DNA of 64,000 nucleotides from assembly GCA_016458225.1 (NCBI GenBank), contig JAEMGR010000013.1, positions 62,001 through 126,000 on the forward strand, written 5' to 3'. The notes below the pieces were generated by a model. That model was given only the letters and a program-made list of their open reading frames with translations. It had not been told where the DNA came from and searched no databases. This document shows, piece after piece, positions 49,304-59,613 of this stretch. Every line of letters starts with the position of its first letter. Within the stretch, counting starts at the first letter, position 1. Source of the DNA: Myxococcaceae bacterium JPH2. GTDB lineage: Bacteria; Myxococcota; Myxococcia; Myxococcales; Myxococcaceae. The position numbers were made by a program, and so were the translations under genes.

Positions 49304-50755
49304 CTACGGGCGCTTGGCCCGGACGAGCACGGCGCCGAAGAAGCCATCCGTGCCATGGGTGTGCGGAGCCAGTCGCAGGTACGGCCCAGGGCCCACCTTC
49401 GCGCCCAGCTCGGCGCCGAGCACCTCGGCCACCGGGCGCACCGTGAACTCCGGGTGGTGGGCGAGGAAGTGCTCGATGACCTGCTCGTTCTCCTCACGCA
49501 GCACGCTGCACGTGCCGTAGATGAGCCGGCCGCCTGGCTTCACGAGCTGGGCGAAGCGCGCGAGCAGCGTCTTCTGCCGCGCCACGTGCATGGCCAGGTC
49601 GTCGGGCGTCAGGCGGTAGCGCGCGTCCGGCTTGCGGCGGAAGGTGCCCGTGCCGCTGCACGGCGCGTCCACCAGCACGCGGTCCGCCTTGTCCTTCAAG
49701 GGCTCGAGCGCCGCGTCCACCTCAGGGCCTTCCGGCGGGATGAGCAGCGTGCGCACGTTGTGTACGCCCGCGCGGCGCGCGCGCTTCTTGAGTTCTTCCA
49801 TCCGGCGCGTGTCGATGTCCAACGCGTGAAGGTCGCCGCGGTTCTTCATCTGCGCGGCGAGCTGGAGCGTCTTGCCACCCGCGCCCGCGCACGCGTCCAC
49901 CACTCGGGTCGGGGGCGCATCGACGAGCATGCCCAGCAACTGGCTGCCCTCGTCCTGGATCTCCAGCCCGCCCTCGCGGAACGACTCCAGCGAGAAGATG
50001 TTGAGCCGCGTCTCCAGCACGAGCCCGAACGGCGACAGCGGCGTGGGCGTGGACTGCACCTCCTCGGCCTGGAGGCGGGCCTGGAGCGCGGTGCGGTCGC
50101 CCTGGATGGGATTGGCCCGGGCGGTGAGCGGCGCGCGCTCGTTCATCGCCTCGGCGGCGCGGGCGGCATCCTTGCCGAAGACGTCGCGGAAGCGCTCGGC
50201 GAGGAAGTCCGGCAGCGACGCTGCGATGGCGAAGCGCTCGGCCTCGGGCAGGGCCTCCAGCGCGGCGGCGGCGCTCGGCAGCGCCTCCAACACGGCGGCC
50301 TCCGCGGGGCTCAGCGCGCTGGTGCGAGCCACCATCGACGGGGACTCGCCGTACAGCACGCGCGAGGCGGCCAGCCGCATCACGTCCTGGCGCGTGGTGT
50401 CCAGCGAGTCGAAGCGCTTGTGGGCGCGGCCGAGGAGGAAGTCCACCGTGCGCTGGCGGCGCAGGAGCGCGTAGACCCGCTCGGCCACGGCGCGGCGCTC
50501 GGACGAATAGAGGTTCGTCTTGCGGCGCAGCACGAAGTCCAGGGCCCGGTCGGACAGGCGGCCCTCGTGGCGAACCAGCCCGTATGCCTCCAGGCTCGCC
50601 TGGAGCACCAGGTCCTCGCGCATGGGCCGGGTGGCGCTCTCGGCGGCGGTCGGCTTGGGCCGCTTGCCGGGGCGCTCGCCGGGCGCGCGCGACGAAGAGG
50701 GCGAGGATGCGGAGGCGTGCCGGCGGGACTGCCCGGACTTTCGTTTCATGGCCAT
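49304..50755 (-). CDS. RsmB/NOP family RNA (cytosine-5)-methyltransferase
   Basis: The 483-residue protein has a basic, Ser/Arg-rich first 45 residues and a NusB-like helical domain (about 46-190). The SAM-dependent domain carries VVDACAGAGGKTLQLAAQM and the two catalytic cysteines in VDAPCSGTGT and YGTCSVLREEN. These are the signatures of class I 5-methylcytosine rRNA methylases such as RsmB (16S C967). ATG 50755 and 50749 are both possible starts. Its N-terminus overlaps the small ORF that ends the VTC operon by 10 bases on the same strand. Confidence 0.92.
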   Translation of the reverse strand: MAMKRKSGQSRRHASASSPSSSRAPGERPGKRPKPTAAESATRPMREDLVLQASLEAYGLVRHEGRLSDRALDFVLRRKTNLYSSERRAVAERVYALLRRQRTVDFLLGRAHKRFDSLDTTRQDVMRLAASRVLYGESPSMVARTSALSPAEAAVLEALPSAAAALEALPEAERFAIAASLPDFLAERFRDVFGKDAARAAEAMNERAPLTARANPIQGDRTALQARLQAEEVQSTPTPLSPFGLVLETRLNIFSLESFREGGLEIQDEGSQLLGMLVDAPPTRVVDACAGAGGKTLQLAAQMKNRGDLHALDIDTRRMEELKKRARRAGVHNVRTLLIPPEGPEVDAALEPLKDKADRVLVDAPCSGTGTFRRKPDARYRLTPDDLAMHVARQKTLLARFAQLVKPGGRLIYGTCSVLREENEQVIEHFLAHHPEFTVRPVAEVLGAELGAKVGPGPYLRLAPHTHGTDGFFGAVLVRAKRP

Positions 50756-51102
50756 GGAGGACTGGGGCCATCGCACCCCCAGGGCCGGGTTGACAAGCGC
50801 TGATGTGCGGGAGGCCCTTGGGGACCTTGAGTTTCCCGGAAACCCCGAAGGCAGACATGTCGGCCTGGGAGGACGTCCCACGTTGGGCCCGAGGGGGCCG
50901 GGGGAGGGGCCAGGGGCTCGTTCAGGACGAAGCCATCCTCCAGGGCCACGCAGTCCGTGGACCGGCGGAAGGCCACAGGAGCCTGGGGCGGCGCCACATT
51001 GGGGAGGCAGGGCTGACAGGTCGGCACGGGCGCGGCGTGGGCCTGCATGAGCCAGGGGCGCACCCCGAGGAGCCACCCGATGCGCATGGGGACCACGGCC
51101 AT
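50746..51102 (-). CDS. Small hypothetical ORF at the end of the VTC operon
   Basis: A 118-residue frame follows the lipoprotein gene by 17 bases. It has coding-like G/C third positions for its first 90 codons, four cysteines, an N-terminal hydrophobic stretch and a Pro-rich middle. Coding bias fades towards its end, which overlaps the methyltransferase start. A second in-frame ATG occurs at 51087. It may be a real small secreted protein or a remnant. Confidence 0.35.
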   Translation of the reverse strand: MAVVPMRIGWLLGVRPWLMQAHAAPVPTCQPCLPNVAPPQAPVAFRRSTDCVALEDGFVLNEPLAPPPAPSGPTWDVLPGRHVCLRGFRETQGPQGPPAHQRLSTRPWGCDGPSPPWP

Positions 51103-51119
51103 CCCTTCCGCGCGCGACG

Positions 51120-51911
51120 CTAGGGCGCCTTCACGTCGTAGGCGCTCAGTTCCTCGGTGCGCTCGCCTTCCTCGCGGACCTTGCCCACACCGGGCACCAG
51201 CCAGTAGGTGCGCCGCTTCCCGTCTTTCGCCTGTCCCGCGCCGTCGAGCTTGTCGCGCTGCACCTCGATGGCGTCATGGAACGTGCCCGCGGGCGTGACG
51301 ACCGTCTCTCCCACCGCCACCACCTTCCACGCATAGGTCGTGGCCTTGGTGGTGGCGGTGCCATTCGGCGCGGTGACGGTTTCACGCACCACGTCCCGCT
51401 GTTCCCATGGCAGTGCCGCGGGCACCTGGGCCACGGCCTTCATCGTCGCGGGGGCCCAGGTGGTGACGCGCACGCGCGTGCCGTTCTCGAAGTCCTCTTC
51501 GCGCAGCCGCACCACCACACCCTGGGCCAGCTCGAGCTGGAACGAGTCCTCCGCGTACACGTCCCCCGTCGTCCGGGAGCGGTCCTGCACGCTGTGCACG
51601 CGCACCGCTGTCGTGCTCGTGCCCTCGACACGCTCCGGGCCCTGCACCGTCACGGTCTTCCGGAAGGTGCCCTGGACGGGGTCGGTGATCCGATACGTCC
51701 AGGTGGAGCCCGTGGTCAGCGGCCACAGGCCGTGTGGCGACGCGGGCACGGGTGTTCCGGTGGCGCCGTCGTCGGGAGCGTTGGGGTCCACGGGGGTGCC
51801 GGGCACGTCCACCGGCGCATTCCCGGGAGTCGGCTCGGTGGGGAGGCTGCCGCCGCCACAGGCCATCAGCGCTCCACTGGCCACGAGCGCGGCCGTCCAT
51901 CCGAGCCTCAT
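51120..51911 (-). CDS. Lipoprotein of the VTC operon
   Basis: The 263-residue protein has a lipoprotein signal ending in ALMAC (Cys about 18). A Pro/Thr/Asp-rich linker follows to about residue 60, then a beta-rich domain with WPLTTGSTWTYRITDPVQG and a closing YWLVPGVGKVREEGER motif. This motif pair is common in periplasmic proteins of unknown role that are often annotated only as hypothetical. Its ATG overlaps the DUF4956 stop by four bases, so it is coupled to the operon. It probably sits at the outer or inner membrane and serves the same process. Confidence 0.8.
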   Translation of the reverse strand: MRLGWTAALVASGALMACGGGSLPTEPTPGNAPVDVPGTPVDPNAPDDGATGTPVPASPHGLWPLTTGSTWTYRITDPVQGTFRKTVTVQGPERVEGTSTTAVRVHSVQDRSRTTGDVYAEDSFQLELAQGVVVRLREEDFENGTRVRVTTWAPATMKAVAQVPAALPWEQRDVVRETVTAPNGTATTKATTYAWKVVAVGETVVTPAGTFHDAIEVQRDKLDGAGQAKDGKRRTYWLVPGVGKVREEGERTEELSAYDVKAP

Positions 51912-52612
51912 GCCGGGTCCTCCTTGGCGCTCTTGGGCGCCATCGCTGTCCAGCGCAGCCCCCGGAGGGGCGCTCCCACCGTGCGGCCCATGGCCGCGGC
52001 CAGCATTCCCGGCTCGGACTCCTCGACCTCCAACTCCAGCCGACGGCTGTCGAAGTCGAGGGCGCAGCTCTTCACCAGCACGTTGCGGTCGCCCAGGGCC
52101 TTGCGCAGCGCGGCCTCGGCGCCGACGAGGTCATCGGACTGCGCGCTCAGCAACAGCCGCTGCCGGGCCACCGTCTTCGCGGGCCGATTGAACAGGTCCA
52201 GGACGAACAGCAACACGGTGGTGAAGGCCGTGCCCACGGCCGCCAGCACGAGGTTCCCGTGCCCGCACGCCATGCCGAAGCCGATGACAAGGAAGAGGAT
52301 GGCCGCGTCGCGCGGATCCTTCAGTCCCGAGCGGAAGCGCACGAAGCCGCCCAGCCCCACCAAGCCGAACGCCTTGGCCACGCTGTTGCCGATGACGGTC
52401 GTGATGACCGCCGCCGCGGCGCACAGCAGCACCTGGGCCTGCACCATCTCCGCGCGGGGCAGGGGATGTCCGAGCAAGGGCCGCCAGGGCCTCAGCGACA
52501 GCAGCGTCCCGATGAGCACCGCGGCCAACATGCGCGGAAGAATGGACGCCAGGGAGAAGGCGTGAAGCTCGGTCTGAACCTCTTGCATGAGGGGCGCGAA
52601 CGCGGTGTCCAT
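51908..52612 (-). CDS. DUF4956-like inner membrane protein
   Basis: The 234-residue protein has about four hydrophobic helices in its first 150 residues. The TTVIGNSVAKAFGLVGLGGFVRFRSGL segment contains the GxGxxVRFRS core typical of DUF4956 and of related MgtC-like proteins. A soluble domain of about 80 residues follows. In other bacteria DUF4956 genes are frequently next to VTC-domain polyphosphate-polymerase-like genes, as here. It is a candidate membrane anchor or channel of the system. The gap to the upstream kinase gene is 12 bases. Confidence 0.78.
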   Translation of the reverse strand: MDTAFAPLMQEVQTELHAFSLASILPRMLAAVLIGTLLSLRPWRPLLGHPLPRAEMVQAQVLLCAAAAVITTVIGNSVAKAFGLVGLGGFVRFRSGLKDPRDAAILFLVIGFGMACGHGNLVLAAVGTAFTTVLLFVLDLFNRPAKTVARQRLLLSAQSDDLVGAEAALRKALGDRNVLVKSCALDFDSRRLELEVEESEPGMLAAAMGRTVGAPLRGLRWTAMAPKSAKEDPA

Positions 52613-52624
52613 GTCGGCGGCCTC

Positions 52625-54331
52625 CTAGGATTCGAGTTGAACCGTGGGGCTCGGCTGAGTCCCGGAGCGAGGAACACGGCCCGAGCGCGCTGCTTCGCGC
52701 GCCGTGGCCACCACGGCGTAGGCATTGCGCAGCACCGGCAGGCTGCCCGGATGGGACTCCAGCGCGCGCTCCAGCAACACGCGGGCTTCGGGCCCCAGCA
52801 GCAGTCCGCGCAGCGAGGACACCACCGTGCAGGTCCACTGCCGTGCGTGGCGCGCGCGCAATCGCCAGGCGCGCGGATCATCCAAGCCATCCAGTGAGTC
52901 GATGGCCTCCTTCGTGCGTGTCGCGCCGCGCTCGCGCAGGGCCCACGCGTCGTCCGTGGTGAGCCCCGTCACGGAGCGGAGCACGAGCTTCAGTGCCTTG
53001 CCCTCGAGTTGGGCCCGAAGGGTCCGTGCCACCGGCGTGTCCAAGCCGGTGGTGCTGCGCAGCACCGCCAACCGGTCGTGTGACACCAGCTCCTGGCGCA
53101 CGGCCTCGGCGCGCGGGGAGTCCAGTCCCGCGAGGCTGCGCGCGACCGCGGGATACAGCTCGCGTCGCATGCCTGCCTCGCGAACCTCCCAGGATTCTTC
53201 TCCATCCACGCCCCCCAGGCCCGCGAGCACGTCTGCAAGTCGTCCGTCGCGCAGGCCGCGCTCGCGCAGGGCCCAGGCCTCGGGTGAGGCATGGTGTGAC
53301 AGGCTGGCCAGGACCTCGGACGCGGCCTGGGGATACAGCCTCATTCGCAAGGCATCCGCGCGCGGTGACGTGAGCGCCTCCAGCCCGCTCGCCACGCTCG
53401 TGGGCGTCGTCGCCGCGAGCGCCTCGCGCAAGTCCCACGCCGCTTCGTCGTCCAGTCCGAGCAGCCCGCCCGCGATGAGGGCAGGGTAGCGCTCGGCCAG
53501 GGCGAGGCGCCGCTGATGCGCGGGCAGTCCCGGAATGCGGCCCAACATCCATGCGGCCAGATGCGGCTCGCGAGGCTCCAGCGCATCCATCGCGAGGAAG
53601 AAGCGCGACTCCACATCGGCCACGGATGCCGTGCCCGGCTGCGGTGCCGGGGGCGCGGGCACGAGCCGCTGCACGGGCAGCTCGCGCTGCTCCAGCCGCG
53701 CCACCACGGCCTCCACCAGCCGCTGCTCCAACACCCACAGGGGCTGCTCGTTGTTCTCCAGGATGAGCCAGTGATGCGGATCCTTCCGGGCCATGGCGAG
53801 GAAGGACTCGCGCACGCGCACGGACAGGCCCGCGCCCGACAGGCCCTTGCGGCTGTCGGCGTCTTGCGCGCGTCCTCCCTGGACCTTGCCCAGGCGCTTG
53901 CGCAGCCGCGCCAGCTCGGGATCCACATCCACCAGGATGACCAGGTCGGGCCACAGCCCCTGGGCGGCCAGCTCGCAAGCGCCCTGCAGGGAGTCCATGG
54001 GCAGGCCCCGGCCACCGCTGCTCAGCGCGAGCTGCGAGTGCAGGTACCGGTCCGTGATGCACACCTCGCCGCGAGCCAGCGCGGGCGCCACCACCTCTTC
54101 CAGTTGCTGCGCATCGCGCGCCAGGTTGAGGAAGAACTCGGCGCGGGAGGTCATCTCCAGCAGGCGCGAGTCGCGTGTCAGCTCCCGGATGCGCCGCGCG
54201 GTGGGCGACTGCAGCTCGCCGCCCTCGCGCGCGTGCACCACCTTGTACCCGAGCCGCTTGAGCCGCGCGGCCAGCAGGTTGGACAGCGTCGTCTTGCCGC
54301 TGCCGTCGATACCTTCAAAGTCGATGAACAC
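52625..54331 (-). CDS. dTMP kinase-like domain fused to about nine 28-residue repeats
   Basis: Residues 1-210 are a thymidylate kinase-like P-loop domain. It has GIDGSGKT at 7-14, DRYLHSQLALSSGGRG from 94 (the DRY motif of TMPK and its GRG end), and a LID-like segment with several Arg and Lys near 150-165. From about residue 282 to 540 there are about nine repeats of the form LxGLDDxxAWxLRExxxx with a following Leu-rich helix. These probably form an alpha-solenoid, HEAT-like. The protein is 568 residues long, against about 210 for Tmk, so the repeat half is an addition. Its place in the VTC operon suggests a phosphotransfer role other than DNA precursor synthesis, but a normal Tmk activity is possible. 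Confidence 0.85.
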   Translation of the reverse strand: MFIDFEGIDGSGKTTLSNLLAARLKRLGYKVVHAREGGELQSPTARRIRELTRDSRLLEMTSRAEFFLNLARDAQQLEEVVAPALARGEVCITDRYLHSQLALSSGGRGLPMDSLQGACELAAQGLWPDLVILVDVDPELARLRKRLGKVQGGRAQDADSRKGLSGAGLSVRVRESFLAMARKDPHHWLILENNEQPLWVLEQRLVEAVVARLEQRELPVQRLVPAPPAPQPGTASVADVESRFFLAMDALEPREPHLAAWMLGRIPGLPAHQRRLALAERYPALIAGGLLGLDDEAAWDLREALAATTPTSVASGLEALTSPRADALRMRLYPQAASEVLASLSHHASPEAWALRERGLRDGRLADVLAGLGGVDGEESWEVREAGMRRELYPAVARSLAGLDSPRAEAVRQELVSHDRLAVLRSTTGLDTPVARTLRAQLEGKALKLVLRSVTGLTTDDAWALRERGATRTKEAIDSLDGLDDPRAWRLRARHARQWTCTVVSSLRGLLLGPEARVLLERALESHPGSLPVLRNAYAVVATAREAARSGRVPRSGTQPSPTVQLES

Positions 54332-54337
54332 GGTGCC

Positions 54338-55051
54338 CTATCCCCCCGTCGCCCCGGCCGCGGTGAAGGCGTGGACGCGTGCCATGCCTTCCGCGAACTT
54401 GCTGTAGGCCGGCGCGCCCCCCACTTGCAGCGCCGCCAGCCACCCGGGCAGCTCCCGCCCCAGGTGCTTCACCTCGACCACCACGCGCGAATCCCTCGCC
54501 ACGGGCGCGCCCAATCGCTCGAACGTCAGCGCCGTGTCGCCCAGGGCCACCTCGGGGGTGATGGCGTGGAAGCCGATGCTCCGGTCCACCGTCACTCGCC
54601 AGGTCTCTTCCGCCTGGTACACGTGCCGCTGATACGTCACCGCCAACACGGGCCGCAGGCTGCCGCCCGCGATGAGGGGCAGCAGCCGCGCGCCCCCGCG
54701 CACCGCCTGACCGAGCCGAGCGCGTGGCACCCACAGGCGCCGCTTCTGCGTCACGCCGCCACGCTCCCGCTTGACCTCCAGCACCACGCGCTCCTGGCCT
54801 CCTGCTCCCAGGTCCGGCGCGTACTCCTTCGTGCGGACCTTGAGGCAGTCCTCGGGCGTGCGCAGCGCGCGCAGTGCCAGGGGACAGCCCGGCTTGTCGA
54901 AGTAGACCGACACGATGCGGGTGGGCGGGCTCGATGTGCCCTGCATCTCCTGGGACAGACGGTCGTGGAGCGCCGCGACCTGGCTCTCCTCGAGCACGAG
55001 CTTGAACTCACGGCGCAGCCGCGTGACCTCGCCTTCGGCGAACGAGCGCAT
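54338..55051 (-). CDS. VTC-domain protein (polyphosphate polymerase-like, TTM fold)
   Basis: The 237-residue protein has the triphosphate tunnel fold features of the VTC domain. These are an N-terminal EFK segment (15-17), YFD (50-52), KVRTKEY (71-77), a basic-acidic VVLEVKRER strand (89-97) and a late VVVEVKHL strand. In yeast Vtc4 the same fold makes polyphosphate from ATP on a ring of basic and acidic residues. Without SPX or transmembrane domains it is soluble, so it may act with the DUF4956 membrane protein. The gap to the porin gene is 13 bases. The exact product is not proven by sequence alone. Confidence 0.88.
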   Translation of the reverse strand: MRSFAEGEVTRLRREFKLVLEESQVAALHDRLSQEMQGTSSPPTRIVSVYFDKPGCPLALRALRTPEDCLKVRTKEYAPDLGAGGQERVVLEVKRERGGVTQKRRLWVPRARLGQAVRGGARLLPLIAGGSLRPVLAVTYQRHVYQAEETWRVTVDRSIGFHAITPEVALGDTALTFERLGAPVARDSRVVVEVKHLGRELPGWLAALQVGGAPAYSKFAEGMARVHAFTAAGATGG

Positions 55052-55064
55052 GGTGGACTCCGAC

Positions 55065-56225
55065 TCACTGGAAGCGGGTGGCGAGTTGCAGCGACAGCTC
55101 CAGCGCGGCCGCCGGATCTCCGGGCCTTAGGGCGCGCTCCACCTGGAGCTGGACCTTGAACAGGTCGGCCAGCAACAGGTTGAGTCCCCCCACCAGCGCG
55201 TGGCCCGTCTTCGTCACCGCGTCGACGCGAAGCTGGAGCGCTTCCGCGCCGAGCACCGGTTGGAGCGCCCAGCCATGCTGCCCCAGGCCCACCAGCCACG
55301 ACGCCAGGAAGAGCTGTGCGGTGAAGGGCCCCAGGGCCACTCTCCCGGCGACGCCCTCGGCGGTGAGCAGCAGCGCGCCCACCTGGAGCTGTGCGTCGGT
55401 GGAGAGCGCGTACTGGCGCGTGCCGTCGAAGACCTGCGTGAGATAGGTGCTGGCCCCCACCGTGAGGCGCTTGAGCGGCTGCACGCTGACGCGCACCGCG
55501 CCGTCCTCACTGAGGCGCTCGCCCGCGTCATCCTCCGCGCCCTGGAAGAGTCCCGCGGACACCTTGAGGCCCCAGGCTTCCTTCCACCGCGCCTCACCCA
55601 TCACGCCCAGCCGACGTCCTCCCAGGTCATTCGTGTCGACGAGGTAGTCCGTCACGAGGCCGCGGCCCTGCAATGGCAGCGTCCACGAGGAGTCCAGCTC
55701 GCGCTGGAGGAAGGGCGCCTTGAACCGGCCGCCGTACAAGCGAAGCCGCTTCGAGTCGTTCGACAGTCGCACGAACGCGTCCTTCAGGATGGACTTGGAG
55801 GCGAGGTCGGCGCTCAGCTCCGCGTCCACGTTGGGGAAGGACGCCTCCACGCCCACGCGCGCGGAAGGGATGCTGAGCGAACGCGCGTAGTTCGCCCGCT
55901 CATCCGCCCGCGCTTGCGCGAAGACCCGTCCAAACAGTCGCAGCGTGTGGACGGGAGCGTCCGCGTCCTGAGCCGCGTCGTCGACCTTGTCCGCACCCGC
56001 CGGGTCCTCACCCAGCGAGTCCGCGGGCTTCACCTTGCGAGGTGCCGCCTTGTCCTTCGCGCCACCCGACGCACGCGGCGGGGGCTTGGACTGAGTAACC
56101 GACTCGCTGGGGTCCGGCGGAGGCCCGCCCTCATCCCGCTCCGCCCCCGCCACCGCCGGAATCCCCAGGAGGACTGCGGCGAGAAGTCCCCGCCACTCCT
56201 GTTCAGCCAACCGCCACCCCACCAT
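55065..56225 (-). CDS. Phosphate-selective porin (OprO/OprP)-like outer-membrane protein
   Basis: With the ATG at 56225 the protein has 386 residues and a signal-like N-terminus (about 1-28, ending in VAGAE). A Pro/Lys/Asp-rich linker and a barrel region from about residue 95 follow. The VFAQARADERANYARSLSI and GRFKAPFLQRELDSSW type segments are like those of Pfam phosphate-selective porins O and P. It ends in a Phe-containing strand (LATRFQ). GGGAGG lies 9 bases before the ATG. The longer frame from 56252 is also open. It is the first gene of the VTC operon. Confidence 0.8.
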   Translation of the reverse strand: MVGWRLAEQEWRGLLAAVLLGIPAVAGAERDEGGPPPDPSESVTQSKPPPRASGGAKDKAAPRKVKPADSLGEDPAGADKVDDAAQDADAPVHTLRLFGRVFAQARADERANYARSLSIPSARVGVEASFPNVDAELSADLASKSILKDAFVRLSNDSKRLRLYGGRFKAPFLQRELDSSWTLPLQGRGLVTDYLVDTNDLGGRRLGVMGEARWKEAWGLKVSAGLFQGAEDDAGERLSEDGAVRVSVQPLKRLTVGASTYLTQVFDGTRQYALSTDAQLQVGALLLTAEGVAGRVALGPFTAQLFLASWLVGLGQHGWALQPVLGAEALQLRVDAVTKTGHALVGGLNLLLADLFKVQLQVERALRPGDPAAALELSLQLATRFQ

Positions 56226-56436
56226 TCCCCTCGCCTCCCGCCGCAGTCGCATGCCCCTGGTGCAACCAGGGTGCCTAGGGGGAGGCCTTCATGGCGGTGT
56301 GTGATGGTCGACGCGCGCACGGGCCCCGCGTCGTGATTCGGCCGTCCTCAGAGGAATGGGCGCGCCTCGGCCTGGGAAGGTTTTTTCCCTCGGAGAGCGA
56401 GGGAGCCTGTAACGGCCCCCTGTAAGAAGTGGCGCG

Positions 56437-57291
56437 TTACTGCCCGTTGCCGCGGTCCGGCGAGGTCTCCACCGGCGCTCCCGCCGAGGACTCCTGGGGC
56501 GCCGGGCCGGAACCTTCAGGCTTCGGAGCGGACTCGGTGGGCGCTGACGCGACCTGCTCCATCATGACGGTGGACTCCTGGGAGTCCGCGGCGGCCGTGG
56601 GAGGGGTCTCGGAGGAGACGGAGTTGACCGGCGCGGGCGCGTCGGAGGCACCCGCGGCATGGGACTCGGTGGGCACCGCGCTGCCCGCCTCGGGCACTCC
56701 GGTGGGAGCCACCTGGGTCACGGCGACAGCACGCTGGGTCTCATCCACCCGGGGCTCCGGTTCGCCTTCGCGCTTCAGGAGGTTGCGCGCACCCAGCACC
56801 AGCGCCACCACGACGCCCGCGCCGAGCAGCGCCCAGGCAAGCTCCTTGGGCGGAGGGCCGGACGCGACGGTGAAATGGGTGTGCAGCACCTTGAGCCGCG
56901 TGGTGCGGAAGCGCACGTCGACCTGCCAGGTCCCAGTCGTGGGCGGGGTGAACTCCGTGCGCCAGCTCTTGCCGTCCCGCTGCAGCGTGACGGTCTGCTG
57001 AGACAGCGCGCCCTCCTGTTGGAAGGTGACGGTGACGGGGCCCTCGAAGGAAGGGCCCTCGAAGCTGTTCACCCTCAAGGTGAGCTGGACGGGTGAGTCA
57101 GGCCGAGGATTGAGGGGGGTGATGGAGCCTTGGATCCGGTCCTCGGCGTCTTGCCAGGACAGCTCCAGCATGCCTGCGCGCCGCTCCACGGCGAGCTGAT
57201 CCGTCGCTGGCGCGGCGGCTGCCTGCATGGCCCACAGCCAGACCCACAAGAGGGGTGTCCAGGAAAACCTTCTCAGACACCTTTGCCTCAT
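56437..57291 (-). CDS. FixH-like exported/membrane protein
   Basis: The 284-residue protein has a signal sequence (1-26, ending in AAAAP) and a beta-sandwich domain at about 45-145. The TLRVNSFEG segment and TPPTTGTWQVDVRFRTTRLK follow the pattern of FixH/YtkA domains. A membrane helix comes next at about 155-175, then a Pro/Ala/Ser/Glu-rich tail of over 100 residues. The fold assignment is by eye. It is divergent from the Ser/Thr kinase at 57364. Its start codon sits next to the kinase promoter's -35 box, so expression of the two may be linked. Two CCTGTAA direct repeats (56406 and 56419) lie just past its stop. Confidence 0.75.
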   Translation of the reverse strand: MRQRCLRRFSWTPLLWVWLWAMQAAAAPATDQLAVERRAGMLELSWQDAEDRIQGSITPLNPRPDSPVQLTLRVNSFEGPSFEGPVTVTFQQEGALSQQTVTLQRDGKSWRTEFTPPTTGTWQVDVRFRTTRLKVLHTHFTVASGPPPKELAWALLGAGVVVALVLGARNLLKREGEPEPRVDETQRAVAVTQVAPTGVPEAGSAVPTESHAAGASDAPAPVNSVSSETPPTAAADSQESTVMMEQVASAPTESAPKPEGSGPAPQESSAGAPVETSPDRGNGQ

Positions 57292-57311
57292 CGCGGTGTG
57301 TCGCCTAGGAT
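57283..57311 (+). promoter_or_regulatory. Putative promoter for the Ser/Thr kinase gene
   Basis: TTGCCT, a 17-base spacer and TAGGAT form a good housekeeping-type promoter. The -35 box lies inside the first codons of the divergent FixH-like gene. The palindromic CCTAGG at the -10 also gives a TAGGCG box for the other strand 10 bases before that gene's ATG. Confidence 0.55.
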
Positions 57312-57363
57312 GCGCTGCTTTGACGCCTTCCACCGAGTTCGCTCCCCCCGGCGAGACCCCGGG

Positions 57364-59613
57364 ATGAACCCTCAATCTTTCGGGAAATACCAGCTCCTTA
57401 AGAAGCTCGCCACCGGTGGCATGGCCGAGGTCTGGCTTGCGCGCCAGATGGGCATCGAGGGCTTCCAGAAGAACCTGGTAGTCAAGCGCATCCTCCCGCA
57501 TCTCGCGGAAGACCGCGAATTCGTGGAGATGTTCCGCAACGAAGCGTTGATTGCGGCGCGCTTCAACCATCCGAACATCGCGCAGGTCTACGAGTTCGGC
57601 GAAGCCAACGGCACCTACTACATCGCCATGGAGTTCATCCACGGCGAGGACCTGGGCCGTGTGATGCGCAAGGCGTACAGCTCGAACCAGTGGATCGCGC
57701 GTCCGCTGGCCATCCGCATCGTCGCCTCGGCCTGCGAGGGCCTGTACTACGCGCACACGCGCATGGATGACGCGGGACGTCCCCTGAAGGTGGTGCACCG
57801 GGACATCTCACCGCAGAACATCCTCATCAGCTTCGACGGCTCGGTGAAGCTGGTGGACTTCGGCATCGCGAAGGCGGCGGATCAGGCCTCGCTGACCAAG
57901 TCCGGCGCCATCAAGGGCAAGTTCGCGTACATGGCGCCCGAGCAGGCCGCGGGCCGGCCACTGGACGCGCGCGCGGACATCTTCGCCATCGGCCTGGTGC
58001 TGTACGAGCTGCTCACCGGGCATCGGCCGCTCAAGCGGGACTCGGAGCTGGCCACGCTCCAGGCCGCCATGGAGTGCGCCATCCAGGTGCCCTCCGCCGT
58101 GGCGGACGTGCCGGAGGACATGGACGCGGTGGTGATGCGGGCGCTGGCGAAGAACGCCGACGACCGCTACCGCGAGGCCCGCCAGTTCCAGACGGCGCTG
58201 GAGGAGCTGCTCGTCAGCCAGCGTTGGGTGGCCGGCTCGGTGCAGATCTCCGAGCTGATGGAGACGCTGTTCGCGGACCGGCTGGAGGAGGAGCGCAAGC
58301 AGGGCCAGTTCGTGCCGGTGGATGAAGAGGCGAGCAGCTCGGGCTCGAGCCCTCCCGCCGCGCCAGACCGGGGCCGCAACCGCCCGGCCACCATGGACAT
58401 GAGCTGGGAGGCTCCTCCGGGTGAGTCGTCCCCGCGCGATCGCTCGAGGGCCTCGTCTCCGTCGCGCACGGCGGTTCCGCGCCGCAGCAGCGTGGCCCCG
58501 GCCGTCCAGCCCGAGGAGCCCAACGAGTGGGAGGCCCCCTCGGGCACGGGTGTCGAGGTGCCGCCTCGGCGCCGCACCAACGTGGCGGAGCCCGCGGCTC
58601 GCCGGGGCACGTCCACGTCCAATCCCAACGCCACCCAGGTGGCGCGCACCAGCTCGCGCTCGGACCTGAGCCGCGCGGGGGGCGCGGAGCCTTCGTCTCC
58701 GCCCCGGCGCACGCAGTCGCGCGTCGCGCCCGCGGCCGAGGAGTCACCACCGCCGCGCTCACGCTCGGGCGTGCATCCGATGGACGAGGAGGCGGACGAC
58801 GAGCGCACGATGTTGCCGCCGCCGGAGCCGCCGCCGCGCCGCCGCACGGGCATGGTGCAGGCCGCCGCCGAGTCGGAGCCGCCTCGGCGCCGCACGTCCA
58901 GCCGCGTGGATCAAGTCGCGGCCGCGCCGCGCGCCCGCCCCGCGCCCCGCGACGAGGATGCCGAGGAGTCCGCGCGCCGTCCCGAGCGCGTCATCGCCGC
59001 CGACGACCGGAAGATGCGCCGAGGCATCGAGTTCCGGAACGTCGCGATGATTGGCTTCATCGTGGGCCTGCTCGGCGTGCTCGGGGTGTTCCACAAGCCC
59101 ATCCTCAAGGTGCTCAACTCGACCGCCTCGGACGGGCAGGGTGTGTGGCTCACGGTGAACACCAACGAGAAGGTCAAGGTGTCCGTGAAGCACTCCGAGC
59201 GCTGCAGCGCGGCCGAGCCCGTGACGGTGCTGGGCTTCGCGCCATTCACGCGCAAGGACGGGGCGCACCTGCAGGACACGCTCATCCTGGAGAACGAGGA
59301 CCGGGGCATCTACGTCGAGGATCCGGACGTGCTCGCCTTCGGTGAGCCCGGCGACGTGAAGGTCCTGGACCGCACGTTCAAGGATGGCAACCTCCGCTTG
59401 AAGATCACCCCCAAGGGCCTCACGGGGTTGGTCATCATGCGCGACAATCAGCGCGTGGGCCTCCCCGGCAGCCAGCTGTCGCTGATGGAGGGCAAGCAGA
59501 AGCTCGAGCTGCGCGGTCCCAAGTTCAAGGACCCCGTCTTCTTCGAGGCCATCATCAAGCCGGGGGAGACGACCGAGGTCACCCTGGACGTCACCTCCGC
59601 CCTGGGTCAGTAG
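57364..59613 (+). CDS. Transmembrane Ser/Thr protein kinase
   Basis: The 749-residue protein has a kinase domain (1-290) with ATGGMAEVWLARQ, Lys41, HRDISPQN (145-152; Ser in place of the catalytic-loop Lys), DFGIAKA and APEQ. A low-complexity Pro/Arg/Ser/Glu region of about 250 residues follows with several RRRT repeats. One membrane helix (about 560-576) and a C-terminal extracytoplasmic domain of about 165 residues come next. The kinase half is closely similar to the one at 21078, so they are paralogues. The ATG at 57364 gives the standard FGKYQLLKKLATGGM start. It ends 7 bases inside the convergent rhodanese gene. Confidence 0.93.
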   Translation: MNPQSFGKYQLLKKLATGGMAEVWLARQMGIEGFQKNLVVKRILPHLAEDREFVEMFRNEALIAARFNHPNIAQVYEFGEANGTYYIAMEFIHGEDLGRVMRKAYSSNQWIARPLAIRIVASACEGLYYAHTRMDDAGRPLKVVHRDISPQNILISFDGSVKLVDFGIAKAADQASLTKSGAIKGKFAYMAPEQAAGRPLDARADIFAIGLVLYELLTGHRPLKRDSELATLQAAMECAIQVPSAVADVPEDMDAVVMRALAKNADDRYREARQFQTALEELLVSQRWVAGSVQISELMETLFADRLEEERKQGQFVPVDEEASSSGSSPPAAPDRGRNRPATMDMSWEAPPGESSPRDRSRASSPSRTAVPRRSSVAPAVQPEEPNEWEAPSGTGVEVPPRRRTNVAEPAARRGTSTSNPNATQVARTSSRSDLSRAGGAEPSSPPRRTQSRVAPAAEESPPPRSRSGVHPMDEEADDERTMLPPPEPPPRRRTGMVQAAAESEPPRRRTSSRVDQVAAAPRARPAPRDEDAEESARRPERVIAADDRKMRRGIEFRNVAMIGFIVGLLGVLGVFHKPILKVLNSTASDGQGVWLTVNTNEKVKVSVKHSERCSAAEPVTVLGFAPFTRKDGAHLQDTLILENEDRGIYVEDPDVLAFGEPGDVKVLDRTFKDGNLRLKITPKGLTGLVIMRDNQRVGLPGSQLSLMEGKQKLELRGPKFKDPVFFEAIIKPGETTEVTLDVTSALGQ

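Follow-up and report, generated by a model that had tools for sequence, protein, structure and literature searches.

Gene content and conservation of the locus

We analyzed a 64,000-nucleotide stretch of the 9.0 Mb genome of Myxococcaceae bacterium JPH2 (GenBank GCA_016458225.1, contig JAEMGR010000013.1, positions 62,001 to 126,000; hereafter the window), focusing on five consecutive minus-strand open reading frames (ORFs) for a porin-like protein, a VTC-domain protein, a kinase fused to helical repeats, a DUF4956 protein and a lipoprotein. The porin-like gene (55065-56225, with a possible alternative upstream ATG at 56252) is followed by the VTC gene (54338-55051), the kinase-repeat gene, which starts with GTG (52625-54331), the DUF4956 gene (51908-52612) and the lipoprotein gene (51120-51911). 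By these coordinates, successive genes lie 13, 6 and 12 bases apart and the last two overlap by 4 bases, in exact agreement with an earlier reading of the same DNA made from its letters alone (the sequence-only reading).

Of 195 Myxococcota genomes, 80 contain a match to the VTC protein at E 1e-3. For synteny, separate searches for the other four proteins were set against the 73 VTC matches that reached E 1e-40 or better; the remaining 8 of the 81 matches, above 1e-40, are distant or partial and were left out. The porin gene lies directly upstream of VTC and the kinase-repeat gene directly downstream in all 73 close orthologues. The DUF4956 gene lies downstream in 72, the exception (G139) sitting at a contig end, and the lipoprotein gene is present in 65. 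The co-occurrence that the sequence-only reading had proposed to look for thus holds, and because it does so in 73 of 73 loci we dismiss a chance arrangement. Loci from further families of this order (L049, L050, L051, L059) keep the core gene order as well, and in the stretches read there none of the window's flanking genes turned up. Judged by spacing, co-orientation and conservation, the gene set is a real, conserved operon-like unit.

A thymidylate kinase-like domain fused to an alpha-solenoid

The first 216 residues of the kinase-repeat protein (53684-54331, minus strand) match the thymidylate kinase (TMK) family Thymidylate_kin (PF02223, E 1.9e-26) in a Pfam scan that covered ten proteins of the window, and score above the cut-off of TIGR00041, the model for deoxythymidine monophosphate (dTMP) kinase. 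In an AlphaFold2 model of the fusion (predicted local distance difference test, pLDDT, 88.3; predicted template-modeling score, pTM, 0.86) these residues align with the TMK of P. aeruginosa (4edh) at Z 26.3 and a root-mean-square deviation of 1.8 over 202 residues. Both the TMK fold and a Walker A motif are present. Residues 237-550 (52682-53623, minus strand) are predicted to form an alpha-solenoid of about ten two-helix units of ~27 residues each, according to the secondary structure of the model, and this region is conserved in the alignment.

We then compared 25 fusion proteins, 20 from loci of the window's kind (type I) and five from paralogous and planctomycete loci described below, with 65 single-domain canonical TMKs, of which 64 came from the wider scan of the best 80 loci and one (L002) from the window genome itself. 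An alignment with 2ccj linked the residue numbering to that of S. aureus TMK. The fusions keep the P-loop, Arg35, Arg49, Arg95, Arg144 and Arg161 and have lost Pro37, Arg73, Asp98, Tyr103, Gln104 and the LID residue Glu163; Arg73 and Gln104 occur in 65 of 65 canonical TMKs and in none of the 25 fusions. The DR motif is retained and the LID is rewritten (RKGLxG). Nine S. aureus TMK residues are tabulated in a docking paper (PMC10610096; papers given by PMC number are cited for the portions that bear on these proteins and genes) as contacts of a co-crystallized thymine-based inhibitor, 0Y5. The window kinase keeps two of these contacts, Arg48 and Arg92, and differs at the other seven (Pro38, Leu52, Phe66, Arg70, Ser97, Tyr100 and Gln101). 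Its equivalents of the thymine-binding Phe66, Arg70 and Gln101 of S. aureus are N69, D73 and S104; position 69 is Tyr in the five paralogue and planctomycete fusions, as it is in 19 of the 65 canonical TMKs.

Seven positions (53, 72, 142, 145, 146, 149 and 162) have turned basic in all 25 fusions, and the basic residue at position 53 replaces a pocket leucine. The net charge of the kinase domain is +2.65 in the 20 type I proteins and +5.8 in the other five, against -4.75 in the 65 canonical TMKs. A divergent quintet of fusions has eight gained basic positions, compared with an average of 0.06 among 2000 canonical quintets matched for identity, a single one of which reached seven. By these comparisons, the kinase arm shares with TMKs the fold, the P-loop, the DR motif and the acceptor-phosphate arginines, and differs from them in having lost the thymine-reading residues, gained conserved basic residues, rewritten its LID and acquired a solenoid. 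The sequence-only reading had left it undecided whether a nucleotide kinase-like arm had lost or kept nucleotide use: residues for ATP binding are kept, and those that would read thymine are gone.

PPK2 enzymes and thymidylate kinases descend from a common P-loop ancestor, and in PPK2s a Lys/Arg cluster between core and lid holds polyphosphate (PMC8776046). The window kinase likewise gains basic residues in core and lid segments. It differs in that the PPK2 profile (PF03976) is not among its Pfam matches up to E 1, and the same genome encodes a separate PPK2. Because that profile gives no match, the changes appear to parallel PPK2 but to have arisen inside the TMK family. Given these changes, polyphosphate or another polyanion would be the most likely acceptor. 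Since PPK2s and thymidylate kinases have a common ancestor, the fusion may represent a second recruitment of the TMK fold towards a polyanion.

The window genome also encodes a separate, housekeeping TMK (L002, G000:C10:381679-382245; 144 bits) in which the thymine-pocket motifs are present. Its P-loop has Thr in place of Lys (GxGTTT rather than GxGK(T/S)), as in 42 of 42 genomes of the family in which it was found and read (L002, L197-L239). Presumably this enzyme works without the Walker lysine. In 11 of the 42 genomes no kinase fusion was found at E 1e-40, so the unusual TMK manages without the fusion there. Its occurrence both with and without the fusion suggests that the two oddities are unlinked. 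We therefore set aside the idea of the fusion as a substitute for a weakened housekeeping TMK, as the fusion has lost the thymine pocket and 11 genomes do without it. A third, weak match to PF02223 (29 bits) lies at G000:C26:80963-81463 (L004, L069).

The VTC protein

The VTC protein, of the triphosphate tunnel metalloenzyme (TTM) kind, matches PF09359 at E 1.1e-18 (68.2 bits, cut-off 23), and a profile of 20 VTC orthologues matches yeast Vtc4 in the PDB at 5e-5. It keeps the tunnel motifs ExK, KxRxKxY, ExK, KxR, YxR, R(V/I)T.D, ExK and SK. Across 20 sequences drawn from type I, type II (see below), planctomycete and general bacterial VTC proteins these motifs are largely kept, the exception being L048, a degenerate second match in G103. 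The tunnel residues, which the sequence-only reading had proposed to check by structure prediction, are thus present by alignment instead. The VTC protein is likely to be a polyphosphate-making enzyme, that is, a putative polyphosphate polymerase.

A close known comparison is the yeast VTC complex, whose catalytic subunit, Vtc4, shares the homologous polymerase domain and the tunnel motifs. An adjacent gene here encodes a membrane partner, and polymerase-coupled translocation is our model for the proposed export. The two systems differ in that no SPX domain was matched here and the membrane partner is DUF4956/MgtC-like, in contrast to the Vtc1-type domain of yeast. Yeast Vtc4 requires Arg264 and Arg266 (PMC8749416); by motif position these correspond to Lys71 and Arg73 here, a placing of our own in a part where Vtc4 is unaligned. 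A VTC domain protein is also mentioned in passing in PMC10503014, and the term appears once in PMC5817204.

Porin, DUF4956 protein and lipoprotein

The porin-like protein has a signal-peptide-like start (by eye) and a low-complexity N-terminus. It has no significant Pfam match of its own; among 15 aligned porin sequences, six match Porin_O_P, with E values up to 0.1 (best 2.1e-4). The porin of a paralogous locus (L082) is a clear Porin_O_P member (1.7e-10, above cut-off). The sequence-only reading had called this protein a porin-like barrel and pointed to OprO/P-type porins, which take up phosphate or polyphosphate. These relatives support a distant relationship to that family, the window protein itself giving no match. 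By sequence, it is an outer-membrane porin-like protein and probably a distant relative of Porin_O_P (OprO/OprP).

The DUF4956 protein matches PF16316 at E 1.1e-10 (42 bits, cut-off 30.6) and consists of a helical, presumably transmembrane, half and a C-terminal ACT-like domain. Its structural model is weak (pLDDT 69.4, pTM 0.47), the membrane half being poorly modeled, so we used the C-terminal domain only. The top Foldseek match of this domain is the C-terminus of MgtC (7qa5, E 2.3e-3), with which other ACT/ferredoxin-like folds tie. MgtC is thus similar in its C-terminal domain and by a weak profile match (PF02308, 4.1e-4). It differs in that the DUF4956 protein scores below the MgtC Pfam cut-off (21.1 bits against 31.4) and in that the C-terminal domain is missing from four DUF4956 orthologues (L049, L050, L051, L059). 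PDB profile searches with the porin and the DUF4956 protein returned nothing useful.

The lipoprotein has the lipobox LMAC (by eye) and is weakly DUF3108-like: of 15 aligned sequences, 12 match DUF3108_like, with E values up to 0.1 (best 4.5e-6). In the sister genome G073, the nearest relative of the window genome in these searches, the lipoprotein gene is unmatched, and only short flanking pieces match.

A paralogous locus and wider relatives

Another 23 kinase fusions, 40-44% identical to that of the window, mark a paralogous (type II) locus in 23 of the 195 genomes, a count that excludes two halves of type I loci at contig breaks (G139:C163, G077:C169). No type II kinase was found in the window's own genome. 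In 20 of the 23 paralogous loci (which include L177-L196, L167 and L168; stretches of ~10-17 kb) the order is CotH, VTC, porin, kinase fusion and DUF4956. The exceptions are L186, with no VTC or porin detected, L196, with no CotH or VTC detected, and L164, with the kinase alone. In L164 (G157:C32) the TMK-solenoid fusion stands without detectable VTC, porin or DUF4956 genes within the 15 kb read. The CotH of L082 is a strong match (8.3e-60). CotH is thus present in type II loci; none was matched by Pfam among the ten window proteins, and the four CotH places of the window genome are all on other contigs. Downstream of one paralogous locus we observed a PPDK_N (phosphate-dikinase ATP-binding) protein and a DUF3108-like lipoprotein (L167:4359-6380, minus strand).

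The wider scan for the kinase fusion, taken as its best 80 loci, also returned two planctomycete metagenome-assembled genomes (L084, L085) in which VTC adjoins a TMK fusion, with an unnamed protein of 529-547 residues and a lamin-tail/dockerin protein upstream; DUF4956 was not detected in these stretches. In other Myxococcota families (L161, L162, L166), CotH, porin, VTC and DUF4956 are clustered in variable order and no kinase fusion was detected. On this evidence, with the fusion scan covering its best 80 loci, the kinase fusion is a subunit added to a broader VTC-DUF4956 system. A separate locus (L159, G018:C54, 7485-9888) holds a trio of porin, DUF4956 and lipoprotein genes. Neither a VTC nor a kinase gene was detected in the stretch read, and the trio is possibly a minimal form.

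That VTC and DUF4956 are a recurring bacterial pair, as the sequence-only reading had noted, is borne out in print: genes for VTC proteins neighbor DUF4956 in streptococci, clostridia and bifidobacteria, and the VTC-DUF4956-CotH adjacency is already described (PMC7112168). The myxobacterial loci share with this Gram-positive CotH/poly-phosphate polymerase/DUF4956 set, and with the VTC-CotH locus of C. perfringens (PMC2879425), the VTC-DUF4956 adjacency and, in the paralogous locus, CotH. The type I locus differs in adding a porin, a DUF3108-like lipoprotein and the TMK-solenoid fusion, and in having no CotH among its scanned proteins. Our search of titles and abstract starts, with subscription papers and preprints outside its scope, found no description of VTC, DUF4956, porin and TMK fusion together and no functional test of such a set, in keeping with the earlier statement that no system with this exact set was known. 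By its gene content, this strongly conserved set is a new variant on the VTC-DUF4956 association with one unexpected component, the kinase fusion.

A linked phosphatase gene, broken in the window

The sequence-only reading had considered a small minus-strand ORF (50746-51102) as a possible sixth gene. Comparison with the sister locus in G073 (L035) argues otherwise. In its place L035 encodes a 441-residue metallophosphatase (Metallophos, 2.1e-17), and blastn matches the window to the regions of the start (51161-50936) and the end (50938-50651) of that gene with the 966 bases between them missing; the protein comparison gives the same two blocks. Because start and end are present and the middle is not, the ORF is a deletion remnant of a purple-acid-phosphatase-like gene (~0.97 kb deleted), and a sixth gene of the operon is rejected.

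A phosphatase homologue occurs in 16 of 25 type I loci read (including the query's own locus, L043), with one more partial at a stretch end; many of these stretches ended ~3 kb downstream. At L050 and L051 the gene lies upstream and is divergent. Genome-wide, homologues number zero to four per genome in 21 genomes, with none in the window genome at E 1e-10. The phosphatase of L043 (10135-11790, plus strand) has PKD domains and a C-terminal stretch weakly matching MYXO-CTERM/myxosortase-dependent models, which suggests that it is surface-anchored. The linked purple-acid-phosphatase-like gene strengthens the phosphate theme of the sequence-only reading.

Other features of the region

A scan of the locus returned no sigma-70 promoters or terminators. 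A TTACAGG direct repeat was rejected as an upstream operator, since among 23 upstream stretches it is confined to the window and its sister. A phage origin was likewise rejected (the PHROGs matches of the three proteins scanned are to TMK families alone), and a search of the plasmids collection with the VTC protein gave no match. An anti-phage role was discarded as well: the PADLOC matches, VakA (5.2e-9) and PDC-M51B (3.8e-7), are confined to the P-loop kinase domain and are far weaker than that to TMK. Divergent from the operon, beyond a small hypothetical gene, lies a gene for a Ser/Thr protein kinase (57130-59613, plus strand); such a gene adjoins the operon in 17 of 34 loci read, with 75-99% identity over the first 330 residues; one of the 34 (L068) comprises just 100 bases.

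Proposed function and alternatives

The best reading that we infer from these proteins is a polyphosphate synthase and kinase unit coupled via an MgtC-like membrane protein to an OprO/P-like porin. The set would then be a conserved envelope-spanning phosphate-polymer system, a tentative assignment to which we give slightly less than an even chance. The VTC protein, docked on the DUF4956 membrane protein, would make polyphosphate from ATP at the cytoplasmic face. The TMK-derived kinase on its solenoid scaffold would have abandoned dTMP phosphorylation and would instead transfer phosphate between ATP and polyphosphate or another polyanion, for priming, chain-end transfer or recovery, much as PPK2 enzymes act with the same fold. 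The product would cross the inner membrane through or beside DUF4956 and enter or leave the periplasm via the porin, with the lipoprotein helping, and the phosphatase would return orthophosphate. We favor synthesis towards the envelope over uptake because both enzymes are without a visible export signal (by eye) and there is no known energy-driven importer among the five genes. A more ambitious version, which we think improbable, is a dedicated Gram-negative polyphosphate synthesis-and-export machine with a cytoplasmic VTC polymerase, a TMK paralogue on a solenoid scaffold that re-evolved, independently of PPK2, into a polyphosphate-handling kinase, an MgtC-like membrane conduit, an outer-membrane porin and lipoprotein, and recycling by an extracellular phosphatase.

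Several points weigh against a phosphate-polymer system of this kind. The window genome encodes PPK1 and PPK2, by which polyphosphate synthesis is already covered. The set is thus not the only polyphosphate machinery of the cell, and an extra polymerase with envelope partners suggests a localized pool rather than bulk storage; the system probably serves an envelope pool. At the position of yeast Arg264 the VTC protein has Lys, by our motif placing, and within the scope of our literature search we found no biochemical work on any bacterial VTC protein. DUF4956 as a channel is conjecture because of its poorly modeled membrane half. The 25 fusions are relatives of one another (mean identity 63%), and canonical TMK clusters of eight or 15 sequences reach up to six or five gained basic positions, respectively, because of shared descent; canonical neighborhoods of 25 sequences reach none. 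As the housekeeping TMK is without its P-loop Lys, a role of the fusion in dTMP metabolism is possible going by copy number alone. Neither lipoprotein nor phosphatase is essential to the core, because the former is absent in the sister genome and the latter is broken here. Finally, a scan with the familiar PhoB consensus found no conserved PhoB-like site or Pho box among the 23 upstream stretches.

The main rivals to envelope synthesis are uptake and surface-polymer modification. In the latter, which is unlikely though a serious contender, VTC-DUF4956, often with CotH, would act by phosphorylation to modify or regulate a surface protein or a polysaccharide that is exported; the product would not be polyphosphate as such, the TMK-derived kinase would phosphorylate a precursor and the porin would export the polymer. 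The best argument for this role, and a further one against a phosphate-polymer system, comes from Gram-positive neighborhoods: CotH, poly-phosphate polymerase and DUF4956 genes are contiguous with pel operons, that is, with exopolysaccharide genes (PMC7112168), and VTC, CotH, HEAT-repeat and chitin-synthase-like genes share one C. perfringens locus (PMC2879425), in which, we guess, the protein named a tubulin-like GTPase by the authors may be DUF4956. CotH also sits in the paralogous myxobacterial locus; however, Pfam matched no glycosyltransferase and no CotH in the ten window proteins scanned, and the linked genes are instead those of a phosphatase and a porin of the phosphate type.

Uptake and storage of phosphate or polyphosphate, as the sequence-only reading had proposed, would have the porin admit the substrate, the phosphatase release phosphate and the VTC protein trap it within the cell as polyphosphate. 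The OprO/P-related porin, the linked purple-acid-phosphatase-like gene and the VTC domain are consistent with this scheme, but none of the five genes encodes a known transporter of phosphate across the inner membrane, PPK1 is already available, and the missing Pho-box-like site speaks against it too; we find it rather improbable. Still more doubtful, and in our view very unlikely, is a sensing complex in which the TMK-derived domain would be a sensor of ATP and a polyanion, the VTC protein would hydrolyze or bind instead of polymerizing, and DUF4956 would signal like MgtC. The ACT-like C-terminal domain of DUF4956 and the large solenoid scaffold would suit such a complex, and triphosphate tunnel metalloenzymes include phosphatases; yet an output domain, be it a protein kinase, a regulator or a DNA-binding domain, is absent from the five genes, and both enzymes keep catalytic-motif residues that a pure sensor would not need.

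If the dedicated synthesis-and-export machine were real, it would do for a phosphate polymer what synthase-dependent systems do for exopolysaccharides. The kinase makes a natural case for studying how the base pocket of a thymidylate kinase is lost and a polyanion site acquired, by a path that may be related to that of PPK2. Myxobacteria are a group with established genetics, and the locus provides a compact, conserved myxobacterial set for testing the function of bacterial VTC-domain proteins.

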